The notes under the pieces were generated by a model, which was given only the letters and a program-made list of their open reading frames with translations, did no database searches and was not told the DNA's origin. From Opitutaceae bacterium EW11 (GTDB taxonomy: Bacteria; Verrucomicrobiota; Verrucomicrobiia; Opitutales; Opitutaceae), in NCBI GenBank assembly GCA_003054665.1, contig QAYY01000003.1:434001-498000 (forward strand): DNA of 64,000 nucleotides, written 5' to 3'. The position numbers and the translations under genes are program-made. This document shows positions 31,895-42,246 of the stretch, piece by piece. How positions within the stretch are numbered: position 1 is the first letter of the stretch; every line of letters begins with the position of its first letter.

Positions 31895-34800
31895 TTAGGG
31901 ATACTCGTAGACTTCGACGAGGGCGACGCCGCTCGCGGAGCCTTTGCCTTTGACCTGCGCAGTGTAGGCGCCGGGTTCCAGCGTAAGGATGAGTGCGGCG
32001 TCCTTGCTCGTGCTGGTCCAGGAAAACGCATGAGTCGCCGCGAAGGCGGATACCAACTCGCTGGTGCCTCCCCAATCGTCGTTGGACGTCATGGGATTCG
32101 AGTGGGCGTCGAAGACGGTGAGCGTCGGATCTTCGAGCACGTTGGCCACGCCGTAAGCAGTGAGCGAGGGACCGTTGGCCCGGATGAGGACGCGTTTCGG
32201 CGTGCTGCCGCCGATGACAAAACCACCGATGAGAATCTCGCTGCCGGACTTCACGTAGGCGCGGGTGGAAATGTTGATCAGCTTCGAGGTTGTCGCGTTT
32301 TCGTCCGACTCGAACACCTCGACCAACGCCACGCCTTCGCCGCCGTTTTTCCCCGCCACCTGGGCGGTGTAGGCCCCGGGCGGCAGTGTCATGACCAGCG
32401 CTGCGTCCTTGCTTCCGCGTGTCCAGGCCCAGGCCCCGGATCGCGTCACGGCGGCCTCGATGGTCTCCGGTGAGCTGCCCGACCAGTCGTCGTTCGTTGC
32501 GAGTACGTTCCTGCCCGAGTCGAGCACCGTCAGGACGGGATCGCCGAGATAGTTGGGGACGGAGAACGAATTGAGGGCAGGGCCCCAGGCGCGGATGAGC
32601 ACTTGTTTGCTCTGCGTGCCGCCGATGATGAAGCCCGCGATCTGGATGTTCTCTCCCGTGCTGACGAAGGACCGGCTGGAGAGATTCACGAGCTTCTGGG
32701 TGTCCACGGAGACGAGTGTGAGCACCGCGGCGTTGCTCGTCGTGGAGCCTTTCGCGTTTGTCACCACCACGGTGTACGAGCCCGCGTCGGCGTCCTGGAC
32801 ATTGCTCAACGTGAGGGTGCCGGCGGTCGCTCCGGCAATCGCGACGCCGTCCTTGTACCACTGATAGCTCGTGGCCGAGTCGGCACTCACCGTCAGCCGC
32901 ACCGTGGATCCGTACGCCGCCGCCTGAGTTTTGGGTTGGGTGGTGATGGTGGGCGCGGTCTCCTCCGCGTCGCCGTAGACGATGCCGCGGCCTCCGGTCG
33001 CGAGGTAAACGCGGCCAAACGTCCGGGGATCGCCGGTCAGAGTGTTGATTCCTCCGAACTGATGTTGCGGGTCGTTGATGCGTATCCAAGTGGCGCCGAC
33101 GTCATCGGAGCGGAAGATGCCTTCCACGTCGCCGACCTTGCCGACCATAAACACCGCGGGATGCGTCTGGCCCGCGGCCGGTTTCCCGAAGCCAATGCAG
33201 TACGACTGCTGCACGTTGCCGAGTCTCGTGAAGCTCGTGCCTGAGTCGGTCGAGCGATAGAGCCCTCGATCGCGGATGGAGAGCCAGAGGTTGCCCTCCA
33301 GGCCGGGGACGGCGCGCAGCTCCGTCGCCCAGGAGCCGGCGACCTGCGCGGCCGCGGAGAAGGAAGCACCTCCGTCGGTGCTGCGGTAGAGCCGGCCTGC
33401 GACGGAGTCGTAGATGTAGAATTTGAGCGCGTTGGCCCGGTCGGAAACCGGGATGAACGACGCCGACGAGCTGCTCGGGCTGCCGGTCGCGGGCGACCAG
33501 CTTGCACCGTTCGTCGTCGAAACGTAAGCGCGGGAATTGTCGGGCACCCAGACGAACCGTGCGCCGTCGGCGGATACGGCCCCTGCTCCGGCCCCGTTGG
33601 GCATGCTGGGCGCCGCGGCAAAGGCGTGCCACGTGACCGCTCCGTCCGTCGAGTACTGGGCTGCCGTGGCGCCCGTGCGGACCATGACCCCGGGATTGTT
33701 TTCCGCAAAATCGATGGAGCGACTCGTTCCGATCAGCGGCGCGTGCCGGCCGGTCGCCGGGGAGACCGTCAGGTCCACGTGGCGAAAACCGTCGACGTCG
33801 CCCACGACGCTGACGAGCGGCGCGTTGCCGGTCGGCGGGCTGACGAGCCCGAGCGGGACGGTTTCCTCCAGCCCCCGATTGCGGAAGATCCACGACACGG
33901 CGCCGCCCGAGTCCACCGCGGTTAGCGTATCGGTGCCTATGATACCGTAGCCGGTGACGAACCAGGCCCGTCCGGAGTCGAAGGGATCGATCTCCACGTC
34001 GCTGACCCAGTGCGGAGAAGAGGCGGCCGCCCAGGGGGCCGAGCTGTAGTCCGGCGTGTGCCCGGTGAGCGTGCCTTTCCAGGTCGAGCCGCCGTCGGTA
34101 CTGCGGTAGATTTCGTCGCCCGGAGCCCAGCGATCGAGCGTGCTGACGATCACGGTGCCCGGCTTCTGCGGGTCCGTGGAAATCCCGCCGAAGCCTCCCT
34201 GGCCGGCGGGCGGGGTGATGTTGGTCCACGTGCCGGCGTCGATGGCGTATTTCCAGACGGCCCCGGAATTCACTCCATTCGGGCCGAGTCCGTCGGTGAA
34301 CGTCAGATAGAGCGTCCCACCTTGCTCGTACGCGTACTGATAAGCCATGAGACCGCTTGGCTGGCCGGCGACCGCGGCCCAAGTCGCACCGCCGTCGGTG
34401 CTGCGGTAGAGAGAAGAAACGGTCGTCGTGCTCGTCGCGACGAAGAGCGTGGAAGCGCCGTTGGCGGCGTCGCCCGAACGGGGGTCGAAGGCGACGAAGT
34501 TGACCGCCGACTGGGGAAACGAGGTCACCTTTGCCCAGGTTTGCCCGGAATCCGTGCTGCGCCAGAGGCCATCCTGCGAGGTGCCCAAGTACAGGATACT
34601 TCCTTTGCGCGGATCCACCTGCAGCCGCTCGCCCGTGCCGCGTCCGTCGGAGTTTCCGCCGAGCTTCAGGTTCAATTCGGTGCGCGACCAAGTTGCGCCG
34701 CGGTCGACGGAGCGAAGGATCGCGCCGGTGCGCGCCCAGGAGGGGAGGTATTGTCCGCAGGCGAGGTAGAGCCGGTTGGGATCGTTGGGATCCAGCGCGA

Positions 34801-35074
34801 GGCTCAGGACGCCGGTGAGTTGGGAGTCGGTCGGCCCGAGATCGTCGTTGAGCGGAATCCAACCCGACGCGGACGGATCCCAGCGGTAAACGCCTCCGAC
34901 GTCGGTGCGCGCATACACCAGGTCGCGCGTCGTGGGGTGGGAGACAATGCCCGTGACAAAGCCACCTCCCTCGATCGCGACGTTTCTCCAGGTGTACGAA
35001 GCCCCCGCGAGGCTGGCGATCGGCTCCAGGAGCCAGAGTAGAAGGAGGATCGGGAATGAATGACGGACGGACAT
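31895..35074 (-). CDS. Secreted GH74-family glycosidase with Ig-like and repeat domains
   Basis: This 1059-residue exported protein has a signal peptide (FPILLLLWLLEPIASLAG). A tandem beta-propeller region at about 25-690, rich in BNR/Asp-box units (YRSTDGGATW), matches GH74 xyloglucanases. The probable catalytic residues are Asp58 in YARTDVGGVYRWD and the Asp in GDVDGFRHVDL (about residue 425). An Ig-like domain follows (about 705-785), then two copies of a roughly 130-residue repeat (GGFVIGGSTPKRVLIRANGP, NDDWGG). The likely substrate is xyloglucan or a related beta-glucan in the medium. The C-terminal repeats probably serve surface retention or binding. No PEP-CTERM signal is present. It is divergent from nudC across about 300 bases. 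Confidence 0.88.
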   Translation of the reverse strand: MSVRHSFPILLLLWLLEPIASLAGASYTWRNVAIEGGGFVTGIVSHPTTRDLVYARTDVGGVYRWDPSASGWIPLNDDLGPTDSQLTGVLSLALDPNDPNRLYLACGQYLPSWARTGAILRSVDRGATWSRTELNLKLGGNSDGRGTGERLQVDPRKGSILYLGTSQDGLWRSTDSGQTWAKVTSFPQSAVNFVAFDPRSGDAANGASTLFVATSTTTVSSLYRSTDGGATWAAVAGQPSGLMAYQYAYEQGGTLYLTFTDGLGPNGVNSGAVWKYAIDAGTWTNITPPAGQGGFGGISTDPQKPGTVIVSTLDRWAPGDEIYRSTDGGSTWKGTLTGHTPDYSSAPWAAASSPHWVSDVEIDPFDSGRAWFVTGYGIIGTDTLTAVDSGGAVSWIFRNRGLEETVPLGLVSPPTGNAPLVSVVGDVDGFRHVDLTVSPATGRHAPLIGTSRSIDFAENNPGVMVRTGATAAQYSTDGAVTWHAFAAAPSMPNGAGAGAVSADGARFVWVPDNSRAYVSTTNGASWSPATGSPSSSSASFIPVSDRANALKFYIYDSVAGRLYRSTDGGASFSAAAQVAGSWATELRAVPGLEGNLWLSIRDRGLYRSTDSGTSFTRLGNVQQSYCIGFGKPAAGQTHPAVFMVGKVGDVEGIFRSDDVGATWIRINDPQHQFGGINTLTGDPRTFGRVYLATGGRGIVYGDAEETAPTITTQPKTQAAAYGSTVRLTVSADSATSYQWYKDGVAIAGATAGTLTLSNVQDADAGSYTVVVTNAKGSTTSNAAVLTLVSVDTQKLVNLSSRSFVSTGENIQIAGFIIGGTQSKQVLIRAWGPALNSFSVPNYLGDPVLTVLDSGRNVLATNDDWSGSSPETIEAAVTRSGAWAWTRGSKDAALVMTLPPGAYTAQVAGKNGGEGVALVEVFESDENATTSKLINISTRAYVKSGSEILIGGFVIGGSTPKRVLIRANGPSLTAYGVANVLEDPTLTVFDAHSNPMTSNDDWGGTSELVSAFAATHAFSWTSTSKDAALILTLEPGAYTAQVKGKGSASGVALVEVYEYP

Positions 35075-36273: not shown

Positions 36274-39200
36274 CTATTTCACCTCCAACCGCGTGCTGGC
36301 GGAGTGGCTGTTGAATTCTGGAGCGTACATGCACTGGATCTCCGCGATGCCGGATTGGTAGACTCCGCGGAGCTGAACGCGTGTCGAGTATTCGAATACG
36401 TACGTGCCCTTCGGGAGGTAATCGATGAAGAAGTGCGTGGCCGTGTCTCGCGTCGTTTCGTAGTAGCCGAGGCCGTCCTGATACCGATACCGGCTCAGCA
36501 CGTTCACGGGCTCCGTTCCGCTGCCGCGCTGGTCCTTCAGGTGAACGTATTCCATGTCGCGGTCGGTCCGGAGTTCGATCCGGACGACCAGCTCGTCGCC
36601 CACGGAAATCGCGCCGTTGACCGGCTTCAGCACCGGCCCCTTCTTGGTCGTTTCTTTGACGAACAGCGTCTTCTTAAGCATGAGGGGCGTCCCCTCGTGA
36701 GGGGGCACTTTGGCGATGTCCTCCAGATACTGCCAGTGGAGGCTGCCCCAGCTGACGCCCTCGTCGGCCTTCTTCACCGTCACGTGACCCATCTCCGGCG
36801 TGACCTGGCTGCCGGGAAAACGCTGCTCGTAGAATCCCGTGCCGGCCTCGACCTTCTCGGGCCTGATCGGCCGCCCGCCGAGATCGACTTCCACGACGGA
36901 GTCTCGCGAGAGCAGATCATCGCCTCGGAGGAGAAGTCCATAGATCGCGTCGGCGGTGGCTTTGGTCGTTTTCCAGTCCTGTGTCTGCTTTTGTTTCAGG
37001 AGCCACACTTTGCAGTCCTCGACCGCTTTTGCGTCGTTCGCGATCTCGGCAAACGCCTCGATCATCAGCGCCTGGGTTTCGATCGGCGCGTGGTACCACC
37101 ACCAGCTCAGTTCCTGGTCGCGCCAGAACATGCCGAGTTCCTCGCTGGTGACGCTGCGTTCCTTCAGCGAACGAACGATGGCCTGGGCTGCAGGCGCATC
37201 GCCGAACCGCTGCAGGGCGAGCGCGAGGTGCGCCTGGGATTGCCGTGAGGTCTTGAGCCAATGCTTGCGCGCCTGGCCGAGAAAATAATCCACGGCGGCG
37301 CGTTTGTCCGGAGCCACGGCCTCGTCCTTCAGATAGAAGCTTCGACCGTACAGGTAGAGCGCCTCGATCGGGCTGGGGACATAGTCCTCGCTGTTTCCGT
37401 GCTTCAGGATGTCCCGGTGCCGTTGCTCGATCCATGCGTCCAGCGCCGCGAGGGATTTCAGGGCGGAGGTCTGATCGATCTCGACGCCCAACTGCCGCAG
37501 ACGCCCGAAGCCGGTCATGATGTAGAGACTGATGTATTCGCTCGGCCGCCCGCCAGGGAACCACGACCAGAGGCCGTCGCTCAGCTGGCGTTCGGAGAGC
37601 TTTGCGAGCGTTCTCGAGGTTTCTTCGTCGAGACGGTTGCCGTCGAAAAGGAGCCCGACGTTTCGCCGAGCCTGACTCTCGGCCTGCGCCTGACGAAGCC
37701 AGGGCGTTTCTTCGACCAGAACCGATTTCAGGTCCTGGTTTTTCTCCAGCGGACTGTCGAGGGCCGGTGTATTCTTCCAAAGGTCGAAAATGCGCCGGAT
37801 TTTCGGATCCGAGTTTGCGATCCGGCGGGCGAGCGCGTTGGCGTACAGCCGGTTGAACACCTGTTCGCTGCACTCGTACGGGTACTCCATCAGATAAGGG
37901 AGCGCCATTACGGCGTACCAGGCGGGCTGTGACACCATCTGAACCGTCAGCGACTGATGCCTGAGGGTGTCGGAACCGCCGGAGGCGATCAGCTTTTCGA
38001 ACTCGAAGTTCTTGGTCCCCGGACCGCGGATCGGGAGCGGCAACGATTCCGTCACGGGTATCCGACGACTAAGTACCGGCAGGAATCCCTCCTCGCCGTC
38101 GCTGAGGTTTCCGGTCGATGCGACCGCCTTGTAGGTGAGGAAACCAAGCCCGTCGGGCACGGCTATGCGCCAGCTGTAGGAGCGCGACTGGCCGGCGGGA
38201 ACGACGAACGGCTGTTCCGTCGCCCTGTTGCCGAGATCGGCGTCGGCCGGTTTCAACGTGGCTGCGTCCGCGAAGGTGAGGCGGACCGTGCCCGACTTGG
38301 CCTTGTCGCTCTGGTTGGTGACTTTGACGGCGAACTCGACCGTGTCGCCCTCCCGCAGAAAACGCGGGGGATTGGGCTCGACCATCAGCTCCTTGCTCGT
38401 GACCGCCGTCCCCGTGAGCAGGCCGTTGCGGAGATCCTGGTCATGGGCGAACCCGAGGAATTTCCACTGCGTCAACGCCTCGGGCATCGTGAATTCGATC
38501 CGGACGACGCCGGCGGGACTCTCCCTGAGCTGCGGGAAGAAAAACGCGGTTTCGTTCAGGTTCTTGCGCGCGACCACGGCGTCGAGGTTGGGCTTCGGCG
38601 CGGCGGCGGGTTCTTCGGAAACCGGTGCGGCGCTGCTAGACGATACGATGGTGGACTCCCCCGGCGCAGGCGCGGCTGGCATCGCGATTTCGACGACCGA
38701 TGCCGAATCCGCCACTTGAGCCCGCATCCGACTGCCTGCGAGCGTGTTTTTTGCCATGTACCCGCCGGAGCCGCCGCGAACCGAGAAGGGAGACAGTGTG
38801 ATTTGGTCGCTTTCGCCGTAGTCCAGAATCGCGTCGGGGAAACTTCGATACATCCAGCTCACGCTCTTGAACTGTCGGTATTCCCACTGGTTCTCCGTCT
38901 GGAACAGGCGACTCTCGTTCTGCAAGGCGGTGGTCAGCCTGGGTTGTTCCGTCCGGAAGACGTTGAGCTCGTTCCACGCATGCGGCTGGAACTGGTCGAG
39001 TGAGGCGTCGTAGAGCGCCGCGACCATCTCGGCGCCACTCTTGCGGGCGTCGCGTCCGGTGATCTCGGCGATCCACGTCTCCTTCTGGCCCGGCGCGAGT
39101 TTCGAGCGGAACGACTCCCATTTGATCGTGAGCTCCTTGTTCGACCACGGGACATTGACGACCCGTTGTGTGAGGTACGCTCGGTTCTCCTGGATGTGGG

Positions 39201-42200
39201 TGATCCGCACGGTGAAACCACCGCGCAGCTCTTCCGTCACGGCCTGCTCGATGAGGGTTTGAGTGCGGTCCGGCGAGGTCCAGTAGCTGCGCAGCGCTTG
39301 GCCACGGCACTCGATCTCGACGAAGGCGCGGCCCGCCGGGTACCCGGTTCCCCACAGTCCGGTGAAGGTGGTGCCGGGTTCGACCGACCAATCTCGAGCC
39401 GCTACGAAGTCCGGGACCTTGGTCTCCAGACGCGAGGCGCGGGGATCCGTCACTTGCAGGACGGACTGGGCGGTCACCTTTTTGCCGAAGCGATCCGTGG
39501 TCTCGAGTGTGGCGCGATAGATGCCGGCTCCCAGTTTGGCGGAAATATGCGCTTTGCCGTCGGCGTCGGTCCTGAATTTCTCTCGCGCGGCGGTGTCTCC
39601 GTTTTCCCACGACTCGGGCCGGGCTGGATCGAGTTTCGGCTCCTGGCTGTCCTCGCTCCGCCAGGTGTGCTCGGACGCCGGCGACTTCCGTTGAACGGCG
39701 GCGGGCTGCTTCAGCGCGTGGATCGTGACGATCCCGTCGGCGGATTGCGGTGTGGCGTCGAGCGACTGCGTCGCGATGTCGAGGCCGACGGGCTGATCGG
39801 TCGTAAGCCACTCTCCGGCCGTGAGCGATGCCTGCAGCGCCGTATAGCCGGCTCGCACGAGCTGGTCGTCCGAGCGTGTTTCGCCGGTCGTGTCGGTGAC
39901 GTCGGCGTGAGCGTTGAAAACGAACACGGGCTCCGTCTTCTCCGGCACGGAACGATCTGGCTTGGCGGTAAACGCGACGGTAAAGGTGCCGTCCGCCTCG
40001 GTCGTGGCGACGCCGTGGGCGATGGCCTGCTTCGCGGGCGGGCGCCACCACCAGCACCAGTAGGGCAGGCGCACGCTGCGCTCGACGCGCCATTTCACTT
40101 TGGCCCCTCCGATCGCCGCGCCGGTGTAGGCGGTGGCCTTGCCGGTGAGCGTGACGGGCTCGCTGAGCTTTGCGGCCTGGACCGGCGCGTGAAGCTCCAC
40201 CTGGAATTTCGGACGCTTGTACTCCTCGACGTTGAAAGAGGTGAATCCGCGCGGACCGTGCTCCACGCGGATCGACATCTGTCCCAGGAGCCGGTCGCGC
40301 GGCGCGGTGAATGCCCCGCTGAAGGAGCCGTAGTCGTTGGTTTGGTGATTCGAACGCGCGATCTCTTTCCCGTTCGGATCCGTGAACACGACCGTGATCC
40401 TTATCCCGCCGAGAACCTTGTAATCCGCGGCTTCAGGGTCTGCACGGAGGCAGAGTCCTTTGAAACTGATCGTCTGCCCCGGTCGATAAAGCGAGCGGTC
40501 GGTGAAAAACACCGTTTGGACGCGCGAGTCGTCGTTTTCATGCGGATACCTCTTGCCGACGTTGAACTCACGGACGGACGCGACGGAGTTCCCTGCGTGC
40601 TCGGCGACCAGAACGAAAGGCTGCTCGGATGGTTGGAGATGAAACTGGCCATCCTTGTCGGTCGTGAGCGATGAAGACGGCCGGTACCAGCCTTCGCGGT
40701 TTCGCTGCCAGCACCGAATCGTGGCGCCGACGATCGGCTCGCCGGTGACCGCGTTCAGGACAAAACCGCCGGAGTTCTTTCCACCGTACTGCGTGCGCAA
40801 CACCAGTGCGAGATCGCTGACCCAGGCCAAGGTGGTGTTGATCTGGTTGTCGTGACTGCTGAAGCCACGGTCAAAACTCGCGACAATCGCGTAGAAGCCC
40901 GGCCGGAGCGAAGTCGGCGCCGGGATTTTCTCCGTCCGGGATTTGAAATCTGCCGTCGGCGGCAGAGCGGCGTCCCAGGCGAGAATGGGTGTTTTGGTCC
41001 GCAGCGCGTTGAAATACTCCGAATTCGGGACGCCGAAACTCCAGCGCGCCTGGCCGATGTAGTCGGCGAAATCCACAGGGATCGCGCGGAAATACACGTG
41101 GGTGACGTTGCGGTAGGTGACGTTGAGCGTGGGCCAGGGTGCATTCCAGACGGCCTCCGTTTCGAGTTGAGCGGAGCGCGCTTCGATTTCCCGAAGGAGA
41201 TTGAAGCACTGGGCTCCGCCGGCGGTATTTGGGAACGCTTTCCATCCGCGATGTGCGAGTTCGTGCGCCTTGGTGGGGTCTCGCTCCTCGTTCAGCTGCG
41301 TAGCGAGCAGAAAGAGGGCGCGCGCCGAGATCTCGTGCCCTTCAGATTTCACGATGAACCGTTCCAGCGCCGCTTTGTAGCGCTCGGTTTTTTCCGCTCC
41401 GACTGCGCTGTTGTGGCCGAAGCTCAAGCGAGCGAGGTCGACGTCCAGAAATGCCGAGCGGTCCGAATCGGTCTGGTGAAACTTCAGCAATTCCTGAAAC
41501 AGCTCGACCGCTCTCCGTTTGGGTGACGCGGTGTCTCCGGTGCCGGGCTGCCATTGGATGAAATCGTCCGCGTTGGAGAAGATCGGGCCGTCGGCTTCCA
41601 ACTCGAAAGCGTCCTCCGCCGCGATGGCGCCGGTTTCGGCGGACTGGTAGAAAACCAGCGCCTCGTTCGCGAGGAAGTCGAAAAGCGTCGGACGGTAACG
41701 GTCGGGTACGTCGCCGCGCGTGATCAGAGCATCGTATTCCCGGACGGGAGTTGCCTTGAGCGCCGCGCTGTCGGCCAGAGCCGCGGCGAAGTGGCGGTCG
41801 ATCTCTGTCAGGATGCGCGCGAGGTCCCACGTCTGCAGATCCTCTCCGGCCCCTGCCGCCGTCTGGGTGCGCTGTATGAAGCGCCACCGGTTGGCTTGGA
41901 AGTATTGCCAGTACCAATGCGCCAGGATCGCTTCCATCGCAGGCTTCATTGGAGGCGGCGTCTTCTCTATTTCGGACTGCAGCCGGACGATCTTCTCCTC
42001 GGGTTTGCTGCCCTGGATATTCCCTTCGAGTGCGATCTTTCGCGTCAGCGCCTTGACCGCTTCCGGATATGCCTTGTTGGCCAGCGCCGCCGCGAGGATT
42101 GGCTCCAGCCGTTCAATCGCGGTTTTCGGCAGGCCTTGGTTCACGGCCTCGTCCACGCCCCTCCAGTCCGCGTCGCGAGGACCGGCGACGAGAGACGTCA

Positions 42201-42246
42201 GCGTTGCGGCAAGCAGGAGAACGAGGCGAAACGGATACGTTTTCAT
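36274..42246 (-). CDS. Giant bacterial alpha-2-macroglobulin with thioester motif
   Basis: This 1990-residue exported protein has a signal peptide without a lipobox (LVLLLAATLTSLVAG), a helical N-terminal region (about 30-480), then MG domains (FFTDRSLYRPGQTISFKGLC, FNVEEYKRPKFQVE). MG7-10 includes the family hallmark EFTMPEALTQWKFLGFAHD. The thioester motif is CSEQ (Cys1459-Gln1462, in YPYECSEQ), followed by an alpha-alpha toroid domain and a receptor-binding-like end. It is probably a periplasmic or secreted protease trap. Unusually, residues about 1147-1180 read like the plug-proximal segment of Opitutaceae TonB-dependent receptors (LSPFSVRGGSGGY, NTLAGSRMRA). Start MKTYPFRL is preferred over 122 upstream residues. 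The usual neighbour PBP1C is absent. Confidence 0.92.
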   Translation of the reverse strand: MKTYPFRLVLLLAATLTSLVAGPRDADWRGVDEAVNQGLPKTAIERLEPILAAALANKAYPEAVKALTRKIALEGNIQGSKPEEKIVRLQSEIEKTPPPMKPAMEAILAHWYWQYFQANRWRFIQRTQTAAGAGEDLQTWDLARILTEIDRHFAAALADSAALKATPVREYDALITRGDVPDRYRPTLFDFLANEALVFYQSAETGAIAAEDAFELEADGPIFSNADDFIQWQPGTGDTASPKRRAVELFQELLKFHQTDSDRSAFLDVDLARLSFGHNSAVGAEKTERYKAALERFIVKSEGHEISARALFLLATQLNEERDPTKAHELAHRGWKAFPNTAGGAQCFNLLREIEARSAQLETEAVWNAPWPTLNVTYRNVTHVYFRAIPVDFADYIGQARWSFGVPNSEYFNALRTKTPILAWDAALPPTADFKSRTEKIPAPTSLRPGFYAIVASFDRGFSSHDNQINTTLAWVSDLALVLRTQYGGKNSGGFVLNAVTGEPIVGATIRCWQRNREGWYRPSSSLTTDKDGQFHLQPSEQPFVLVAEHAGNSVASVREFNVGKRYPHENDDSRVQTVFFTDRSLYRPGQTISFKGLCLRADPEAADYKVLGGIRITVVFTDPNGKEIARSNHQTNDYGSFSGAFTAPRDRLLGQMSIRVEHGPRGFTSFNVEEYKRPKFQVELHAPVQAAKLSEPVTLTGKATAYTGAAIGGAKVKWRVERSVRLPYWCWWWRPPAKQAIAHGVATTEADGTFTVAFTAKPDRSVPEKTEPVFVFNAHADVTDTTGETRSDDQLVRAGYTALQASLTAGEWLTTDQPVGLDIATQSLDATPQSADGIVTIHALKQPAAVQRKSPASEHTWRSEDSQEPKLDPARPESWENGDTAAREKFRTDADGKAHISAKLGAGIYRATLETTDRFGKKVTAQSVLQVTDPRASRLETKVPDFVAARDWSVEPGTTFTGLWGTGYPAGRAFVEIECRGQALRSYWTSPDRTQTLIEQAVTEELRGGFTVRITHIQENRAYLTQRVVNVPWSNKELTIKWESFRSKLAPGQKETWIAEITGRDARKSGAEMVAALYDASLDQFQPHAWNELNVFRTEQPRLTTALQNESRLFQTENQWEYRQFKSVSWMYRSFPDAILDYGESDQITLSPFSVRGGSGGYMAKNTLAGSRMRAQVADSASVVEIAMPAAPAPGESTIVSSSSAAPVSEEPAAAPKPNLDAVVARKNLNETAFFFPQLRESPAGVVRIEFTMPEALTQWKFLGFAHDQDLRNGLLTGTAVTSKELMVEPNPPRFLREGDTVEFAVKVTNQSDKAKSGTVRLTFADAATLKPADADLGNRATEQPFVVPAGQSRSYSWRIAVPDGLGFLTYKAVASTGNLSDGEEGFLPVLSRRIPVTESLPLPIRGPGTKNFEFEKLIASGGSDTLRHQSLTVQMVSQPAWYAVMALPYLMEYPYECSEQVFNRLYANALARRIANSDPKIRRIFDLWKNTPALDSPLEKNQDLKSVLVEETPWLRQAQAESQARRNVGLLFDGNRLDEETSRTLAKLSERQLSDGLWSWFPGGRPSEYISLYIMTGFGRLRQLGVEIDQTSALKSLAALDAWIEQRHRDILKHGNSEDYVPSPIEALYLYGRSFYLKDEAVAPDKRAAVDYFLGQARKHWLKTSRQSQAHLALALQRFGDAPAAQAIVRSLKERSVTSEELGMFWRDQELSWWWYHAPIETQALMIEAFAEIANDAKAVEDCKVWLLKQKQTQDWKTTKATADAIYGLLLRGDDLLSRDSVVEVDLGGRPIRPEKVEAGTGFYEQRFPGSQVTPEMGHVTVKKADEGVSWGSLHWQYLEDIAKVPPHEGTPLMLKKTLFVKETTKKGPVLKPVNGAISVGDELVVRIELRTDRDMEYVHLKDQRGSGTEPVNVLSRYRYQDGLGYYETTRDTATHFFIDYLPKGTYVFEYSTRVQLRGVYQSGIAEIQCMYAPEFNSHSASTRLEVK

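Follow-up and report, generated by a model that had tools for sequence, protein, structure and literature searches.

An Opitutaceae alpha-2-macroglobulin with a TonB-dependent receptor N-terminal segment in its bait region

The window analysed here is a 64,000-nucleotide stretch of the genome of Opitutaceae bacterium EW11 (contig QAYY01000003.1, positions 434,001–498,000). On its minus strand, at 36274..42246, lies a gene for a 1990-residue alpha-2-macroglobulin (A2M), recognised from its open reading frame (ORF), from Pfam and from relatives matched at full length. The protein begins with a probable signal peptide (MKTYPFRLVLLLAATLTSLVAG; 42181..42246) that, judged by eye, lacks a lipobox cysteine. 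This is followed, all on the minus strand, by (i) a macroglobulin domain, MG2 (PF01835; residues 579–673, 40228..40512), (ii) a hypervariable, disordered bait region (residues 1117–1213, 38608..38898), (iii) directly after the bait, an A2M domain (PF00207; residues 1233–1323, 38278..38550), (iv) the thioester motif CSEQ (residues 1459–1462, 37861..37872), of which C, E and Q are invariant in alignment A1, and (v) a bMG10 domain (PF17973; residues 1857–1977, 36316..36678). A CarboxypepD_reg match at residues 494–564 falls below the Pfam threshold. With MG2, PF00207, bMG10, CSEQ and a disordered bait before PF00207 all present, the protein is a bacterial thioester A2M. It is best read as a suicide protease trap, probably periplasmic given the signal peptide and the apparent lack of a lipobox. 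Our subject is a segment within the bait that derives from TonB-dependent receptors (TBDRs). A first-pass annotation had pointed to CSEQ and, about 300 residues earlier, to receptor-like words; both are indeed present, with LSPFSVRGGSGGYMAKNTLAGSRMR at residues 1151–1175 (nucleotides 38722–38796), 308 residues upstream of CSEQ.

Several observations place the segment in the bait. Residues 1140–1220 are the gappiest and least conserved stretch of a 59-row A2M alignment, with the minimum of column conservation; mean identity to the window A2M, per 20 columns, is 0.05–0.15 here versus 0.47–0.87 in the following blocks. AlphaFold gives residues 1117–1213 a pLDDT (its per-residue confidence score) below 50, between confidently predicted beta-sandwich domains, and this is the last loop before PF00207. 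The bait-region family A2M_BRD is matched by 3 of 141 homologous baits. In the E. coli A2M, according to PMC4498604, cutting of a largely disordered bait region triggers the protein. Position, low conservation, predicted disorder and this precedent together indicate that the TBDR-like segment lies in the bait. Foldseek matches of the model in the Protein Data Bank include complement C3, C5, CD109, the E. coli A2M (5a42, E 9.6e-23) and the Salmonella A2M (4u48, E 4.3e-22); whole-chain TM-scores are low (0.33/0.18 for the two bacterial structures), since domain placement differs.

The annotation had envisaged a plug domain folded between MG domains, and this part does not hold: Pfam finds neither Plug (PF07715) nor a TonB-dependent beta-barrel family in the window A2M up to E 1, and the loop is predicted to be disordered. 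The window protein is not a TBDR; it has a TonB-box sequence but neither plug nor barrel. The alternative of an ordinary loop is partly correct, in that the segment is the bait loop. It is very unlikely that the A2M uses a plug domain to insert into a TBDR barrel, to dock there or to be exported by that route. A precedent exists in the TonB-dependent transporter Oar, which takes part in secretion of the protein PopC (PMC6434023), but the plug is at most partial even in L040, whose plug match is the longest of any bait (above the Pfam cut-off, positions 3–68 of 107). There too the loop (344–478 in the model's numbering) is predicted to be disordered, albeit in a poor model (pLDDT 65.8; pTM, the predicted TM-score, 0.41).

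What the segment is can be read from the receptors of its own genome, which has 66 Plug matches. A 53-residue segment query matches 28 places in that genome: itself, a second A2M (C21) that is only distantly related to the window A2M, and 26 other frames, all of them overlapping the beginning of a Plug match and reading as receptor N-termini. A profile built from these 26 N-termini, leaving out the A2Ms, matches residues 1145–1187 (38686..38814) at 38.5 bits (E 4.3e-11 for 1000 sequences), and none of 1470 shuffled baits at 8 bits; the profile is not blind, its receptors having been fetched by similarity to the window segment itself. The match spans the TonB box plus about 30 residues beyond. 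The box-like decapeptide is DQITLSPFSV (residues 1147–1156, 38779..38808); the role of such boxes is described in PMC6434023. A second profile was made from 30 receptors picked by Plug alone; its listed matches above 5 bits do not include the window bait. These results confirm that the segment consists of a TonB box and the first plug residues, homologous to the N-terminus of Opitutaceae-type TBDRs, as the annotation had proposed, and that it is not a plug domain. The proposed derivation from TBDR genes is likewise supported. Chance resemblance is rejected by the profile scores, set against zero shuffles, and by the restriction of matches to the sense frame. An assembly artefact is unlikely, since the window contig is 700 kb long and a strong case, L177 (75.7 bits), comes from a two-contig genome (G437).

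The distribution of such baits was examined in A2M profile surveys, which gave matches in 140 of 288 genomes from the phylum, in 37 of 250 from the family Opitutaceae and in 101 of 198 from one Bacteroidota order (baits taken from 30 loci and 60 further places); a scan of the genome collection yielded at least 80 A2M loci. The common bait set comprises 48 family, 96 Bacteroidota and 73 other baits. A duplicate (L002) was dropped, L121 was counted as family because it sits in a family contig, and six of the 96 "Bacteroidota" baits come from other loci; L253 belongs to an uncultured bacterium. Bait rows represent related genes and are not independent draws. At 8 bits the 26-receptor profile matches 25 of the 48 family baits, none of the Bacteroidota or other baits and none of 2170 shuffles, with a top score of 104.6 bits (L201). 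The Plug-chosen profile gives nearly the same picture (24/48, 0/96, 0/73 and 0/2170) with 146-residue baits, and 18/48 with 180-residue baits. An Opitutaceae-type box pattern, written after reading the baits, occurs in 31 of 49 family baits (a total that still contains one duplicate) and in none of the 96 Bacteroidota or 73 other baits; a looser pattern is found in 36/48. The extent of the receptor-like sequence varies, from a bare box in L033 (DVIELHAFSV) to about 70 residues in L201, L042 and L193. That homologues lack the LSPF/NTLAG words is true of some family members and false for most. Outside the family, L068 (EEAVTVSGKRSERQ) and L138 (VIVEGNTITGSRVV) contain words that resemble TonB boxes by eye and may mark further lineages.

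In Bacteroidota, a related signal is present in a minority of baits. With patterns again devised post hoc, a SusC-type box is found in 12/96 baits, where shuffles predict 0.84, and 9/96 contain the plug word G[KR][VI]xGxxV, where shuffles predict 0.01; neither occurs in the 49 family or 73 other baits. An xRG pattern is enriched in Bacteroidota (9/96 against 1.06 expected) and barely so in family (2/49 against 0.94) or other baits (3/73 against 2.08). A profile of 25 Bacteroidota receptors reaches 8 bits in 6/96 Bacteroidota, 3/48 family, 0/73 other baits and 0/2170 shuffles. The bait of L269, for example, reads FNEVVVVGYGATKRKDLIGDTARALQGRVAGIAVES. Plug words, RVGG..DG and GKVAGV among them, recur in baits, and in two (L250, L288) the receptor order is broken, which fits peptide mimicry rather than a fold. 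Support for TBDR-like pieces in Bacteroidota baits is real and confined to a minority; the wider family that the annotation suspected thus stands for some Bacteroidota A2Ms and not for most. In a WOR-3 A2M (L155), the bait resembles by eye a CarboxypepD_reg-like domain, which is found at the N-terminus of SusC/Oar receptors.

The family's TBDR-like baits are not of a single kind. A quick-method tree of 121 rows, built on the MG7-thioester block and used only for placing family rows, spreads the family A2Ms over several positions; it requires 8 changes of the family label, and well-supported branches force at least three of them. A corresponding count of box states (16 changes) is unreliable, the regular expression having missed L175, L181 and L188 and called L097. 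An Ereboglobus-type A2M clade adjoins Puniceicoccales rows without a box and uses another TBDR class. The L040 bait is 55% identical over 86 residues to a receptor-like 1123-residue frame of its own genome (E 1.8e-25), and L058 and L059 carry a box plus the plug words VRVGGLDPKYAGFSMDG, the same as in their own genomes' receptors. Within one family, TBDR-like baits recur in two deep types of A2M and draw on two classes of TBDR (LSPF/NTLAG and the Ereboglobus RVGG class). At L059 (G050:C1:269204-275354), the CSEQ-type A2M gene reads as two frames of 1648 and 656 residues, meeting near the thioester region.

How recently these segments were acquired can be considered for L201. Its best match other than itself is a TBDR of its own genome, at 75% identity, with a TBDR of another genome only slightly behind (73%). 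Recent copying of DNA from the receptor is unsupported: only 20 of 77 codons are identical, the others showing 36 synonymous and 21 non-synonymous differences. Because the other-genome TBDR is nearly as close, a same-genome origin of this segment is likewise not established. What L201 and its nearest own-genome receptor do share is protein sequence, with 56 of 77 residues identical and 36 of these encoded by different codons. In five genus-g20 genes, the box, GY and TLAGSRL codons have a synonymous difference (pS) of 0.67–1.16 and a non-synonymous to synonymous ratio (pN/pS) of 0.15–0.31, a ratio biased low by the choice of 20 motif codons for their conservation; the adjoining MG7 block of the same genes gives 0.03–0.22. 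Since shared residues use different codons in L201, and since pS is high and pN/pS low in g20, it is the peptide rather than the DNA that is kept in these cases. Selection for the bait peptide is supported, not proven.

These data bear on whether the segments are neutral captures, that is, whether a bait tolerating almost any sequence would take up pieces of TBDR genes, as abundant and hence usual donors in ectopic recombination, and let them decay. Plug matches number 7–98 in 15 family genomes (for G045 and G501, at least the counts among 98 scored candidates) against 0–13 in 20 relatives, as neutral capture would lead one to expect, and the box comes and goes within genus g11 (present in L035 and L197, absent from L036 and L176). 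We nevertheless consider this explanation unlikely. Firstly, matches of 8 bits occur in the sense frame only; across 216 baits, the remaining five frames give none. Secondly, every one of the 27 family matches scoring 5 bits or more starts within model positions 2–8, which is the box, although their ends range from 19 to 77. Thirdly, the g20 residues are conserved despite saturated synonymous change (subject to the biased codon choice). Fourthly, no other protein family recurs: when 141 baits (46 family, 95 Bacteroidota) were compared with Pfam and NCBIfam at a weak threshold of 0.5, the only families with more than one bait were Plug (3), A2M_BRD (3) and TonB receptors (at most 4, best 8.9e-8), and all others matched single baits (best Glyco_hydro_85, 6.4e-5). 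Finally, TBDR number is not decisive; a box-bearing A2M is present in G348, where Plug matches number 7, and absent from G010, where they number 13.

The fixed start speaks more directly for a working TonB box, through which the bait loop would bind the periplasmic domain of TonB, tethering or mechanically loading the trap near active outer-membrane receptors. According to PMC6434023, TonB boxes bind the TonB C-terminal domain. That 27 of 27 matches start at the box with varying ends is better explained by docking than by imitation of a receptor tail, and the A2M boxes follow the local TBDR dialect. They also resemble the receptor pattern L..F.V, with an acid at −4 and V/I at −2, a weak point given that L, F and some of the other positions are already set by the search pattern. 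On the other hand, four Bacteroidota baits (L268, L274, L283, L333) keep GKVAGV without the box pattern, and docking gives no reason for the peptide to sit in the bait. On balance, we regard a docking role as possible, though improbable.

TonB pulls on the plug. PMC5413942 is consistent with such pulling. Against this background, the reading to which we lean, tentatively and with slightly less than even confidence, is that the bait is a decoy that mimics the tails of the cell's own receptors. Facing the periplasm, these tails, and plugs while TonB pulls on them, would be flexible peptides; a protease that can cleave receptor tails would cut the bait first; and cutting of the bait would cause a conformational change by which the protease is trapped through the thioester. 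Several points weigh against the decoy. By eye, 11 of the 48 family baits have no clear box (L036, L087, L176, L189, L191, L198, L202, L203, L204, L210, L211), so the box is dispensable; most Bacteroidota baits show nothing, with only the six mentioned above reaching 8 bits. Besides being biased, the low pN/pS could partly reflect renewed copying from constrained TBDRs, and most carriers are rich in TBDR genes, as donor supply alone would also yield. Furthermore, the decoy reading names no target protease, its binding and trapping steps being putative, and it does not predict a match that starts exactly at the TonB box, which docking does. Sequence only partly separates decoy, TonB docking and neutral capture. 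A combination, in which TonB grips the box in the bait, a pull driven by the proton-motive force positions or arms the A2M, and bait cleavage reports receptor integrity, seems to us quite doubtful.

The protein itself belongs to the known thioester A2Ms; the new part is the bait. ECAM, the E. coli A2M (YfhM), is a lipoprotein, and ECAM-like A2Ms are partnered with a neighbouring gene for the penicillin-binding protein PbpC. The window A2M has in common with ECAM and the Salmonella SaA2M its MG domains, disordered bait and thioester domain, but differs in the TBDR N-terminal segment of its bait and in having no lipobox by eye. It also differs from ECAM in its surroundings: no penicillin-binding protein gene is found among the five neighbouring ORFs scanned. 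These encode a NUDIX protein, a TetR protein, a sortilin/BNR-Ig protein and two products with no Pfam match at 1e-5, and give no hint on function. With the same-genome TBDRs of both classes and with Bacteroidota SusC/RagA, the A2Ms share the TonB box and the start of the plug; unlike receptors, they have no barrel and no complete plug, and the segment is internal, in the bait of a protease trap. We found no published account of an A2M bait with a TBDR or plug segment among the open-licence papers listed, judged by title or the start of the abstract.

To our knowledge, little is settled about what bacterial A2Ms guard and which proteases they meet. Repeated use of a cell's own TonB receptors as the source of bait sequence points to the receptor tail as a candidate client. 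It also turns the matter into questions for experiment, namely which protease cleaves TonB boxes and whether the bait is bound by TonB. The pattern suggests that the trap may imitate what it protects, or may hook onto the same machinery. If the former is true, the protein would clearly exemplify a protease trap whose bait has evolved through self-mimicry.

Some further observations concern the surroundings of the gene and receptor-like frames met alongside. The sortilin/BNR-repeat protein with an Ig domain lies near the A2M gene, at 31895-35074 on the minus strand of the window. Plug/TonB-box segments also occur inside open frames of about 2,800–3,850 residues (G002:C8:130382-130636, L408; G366:C488:8501-8767; G045:C1:381655-381909, L409). 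Since the two that were read, L408 and L409, end like TBDR barrels, the frames resemble receptors whose N-termini are greatly extended. A further frame of 1922 residues (L407; G348:C111:48544-48768) carries a TBDR-like segment, with a C-terminus that is barrel-like by eye and a long N-terminal part that does not resemble a receptor.

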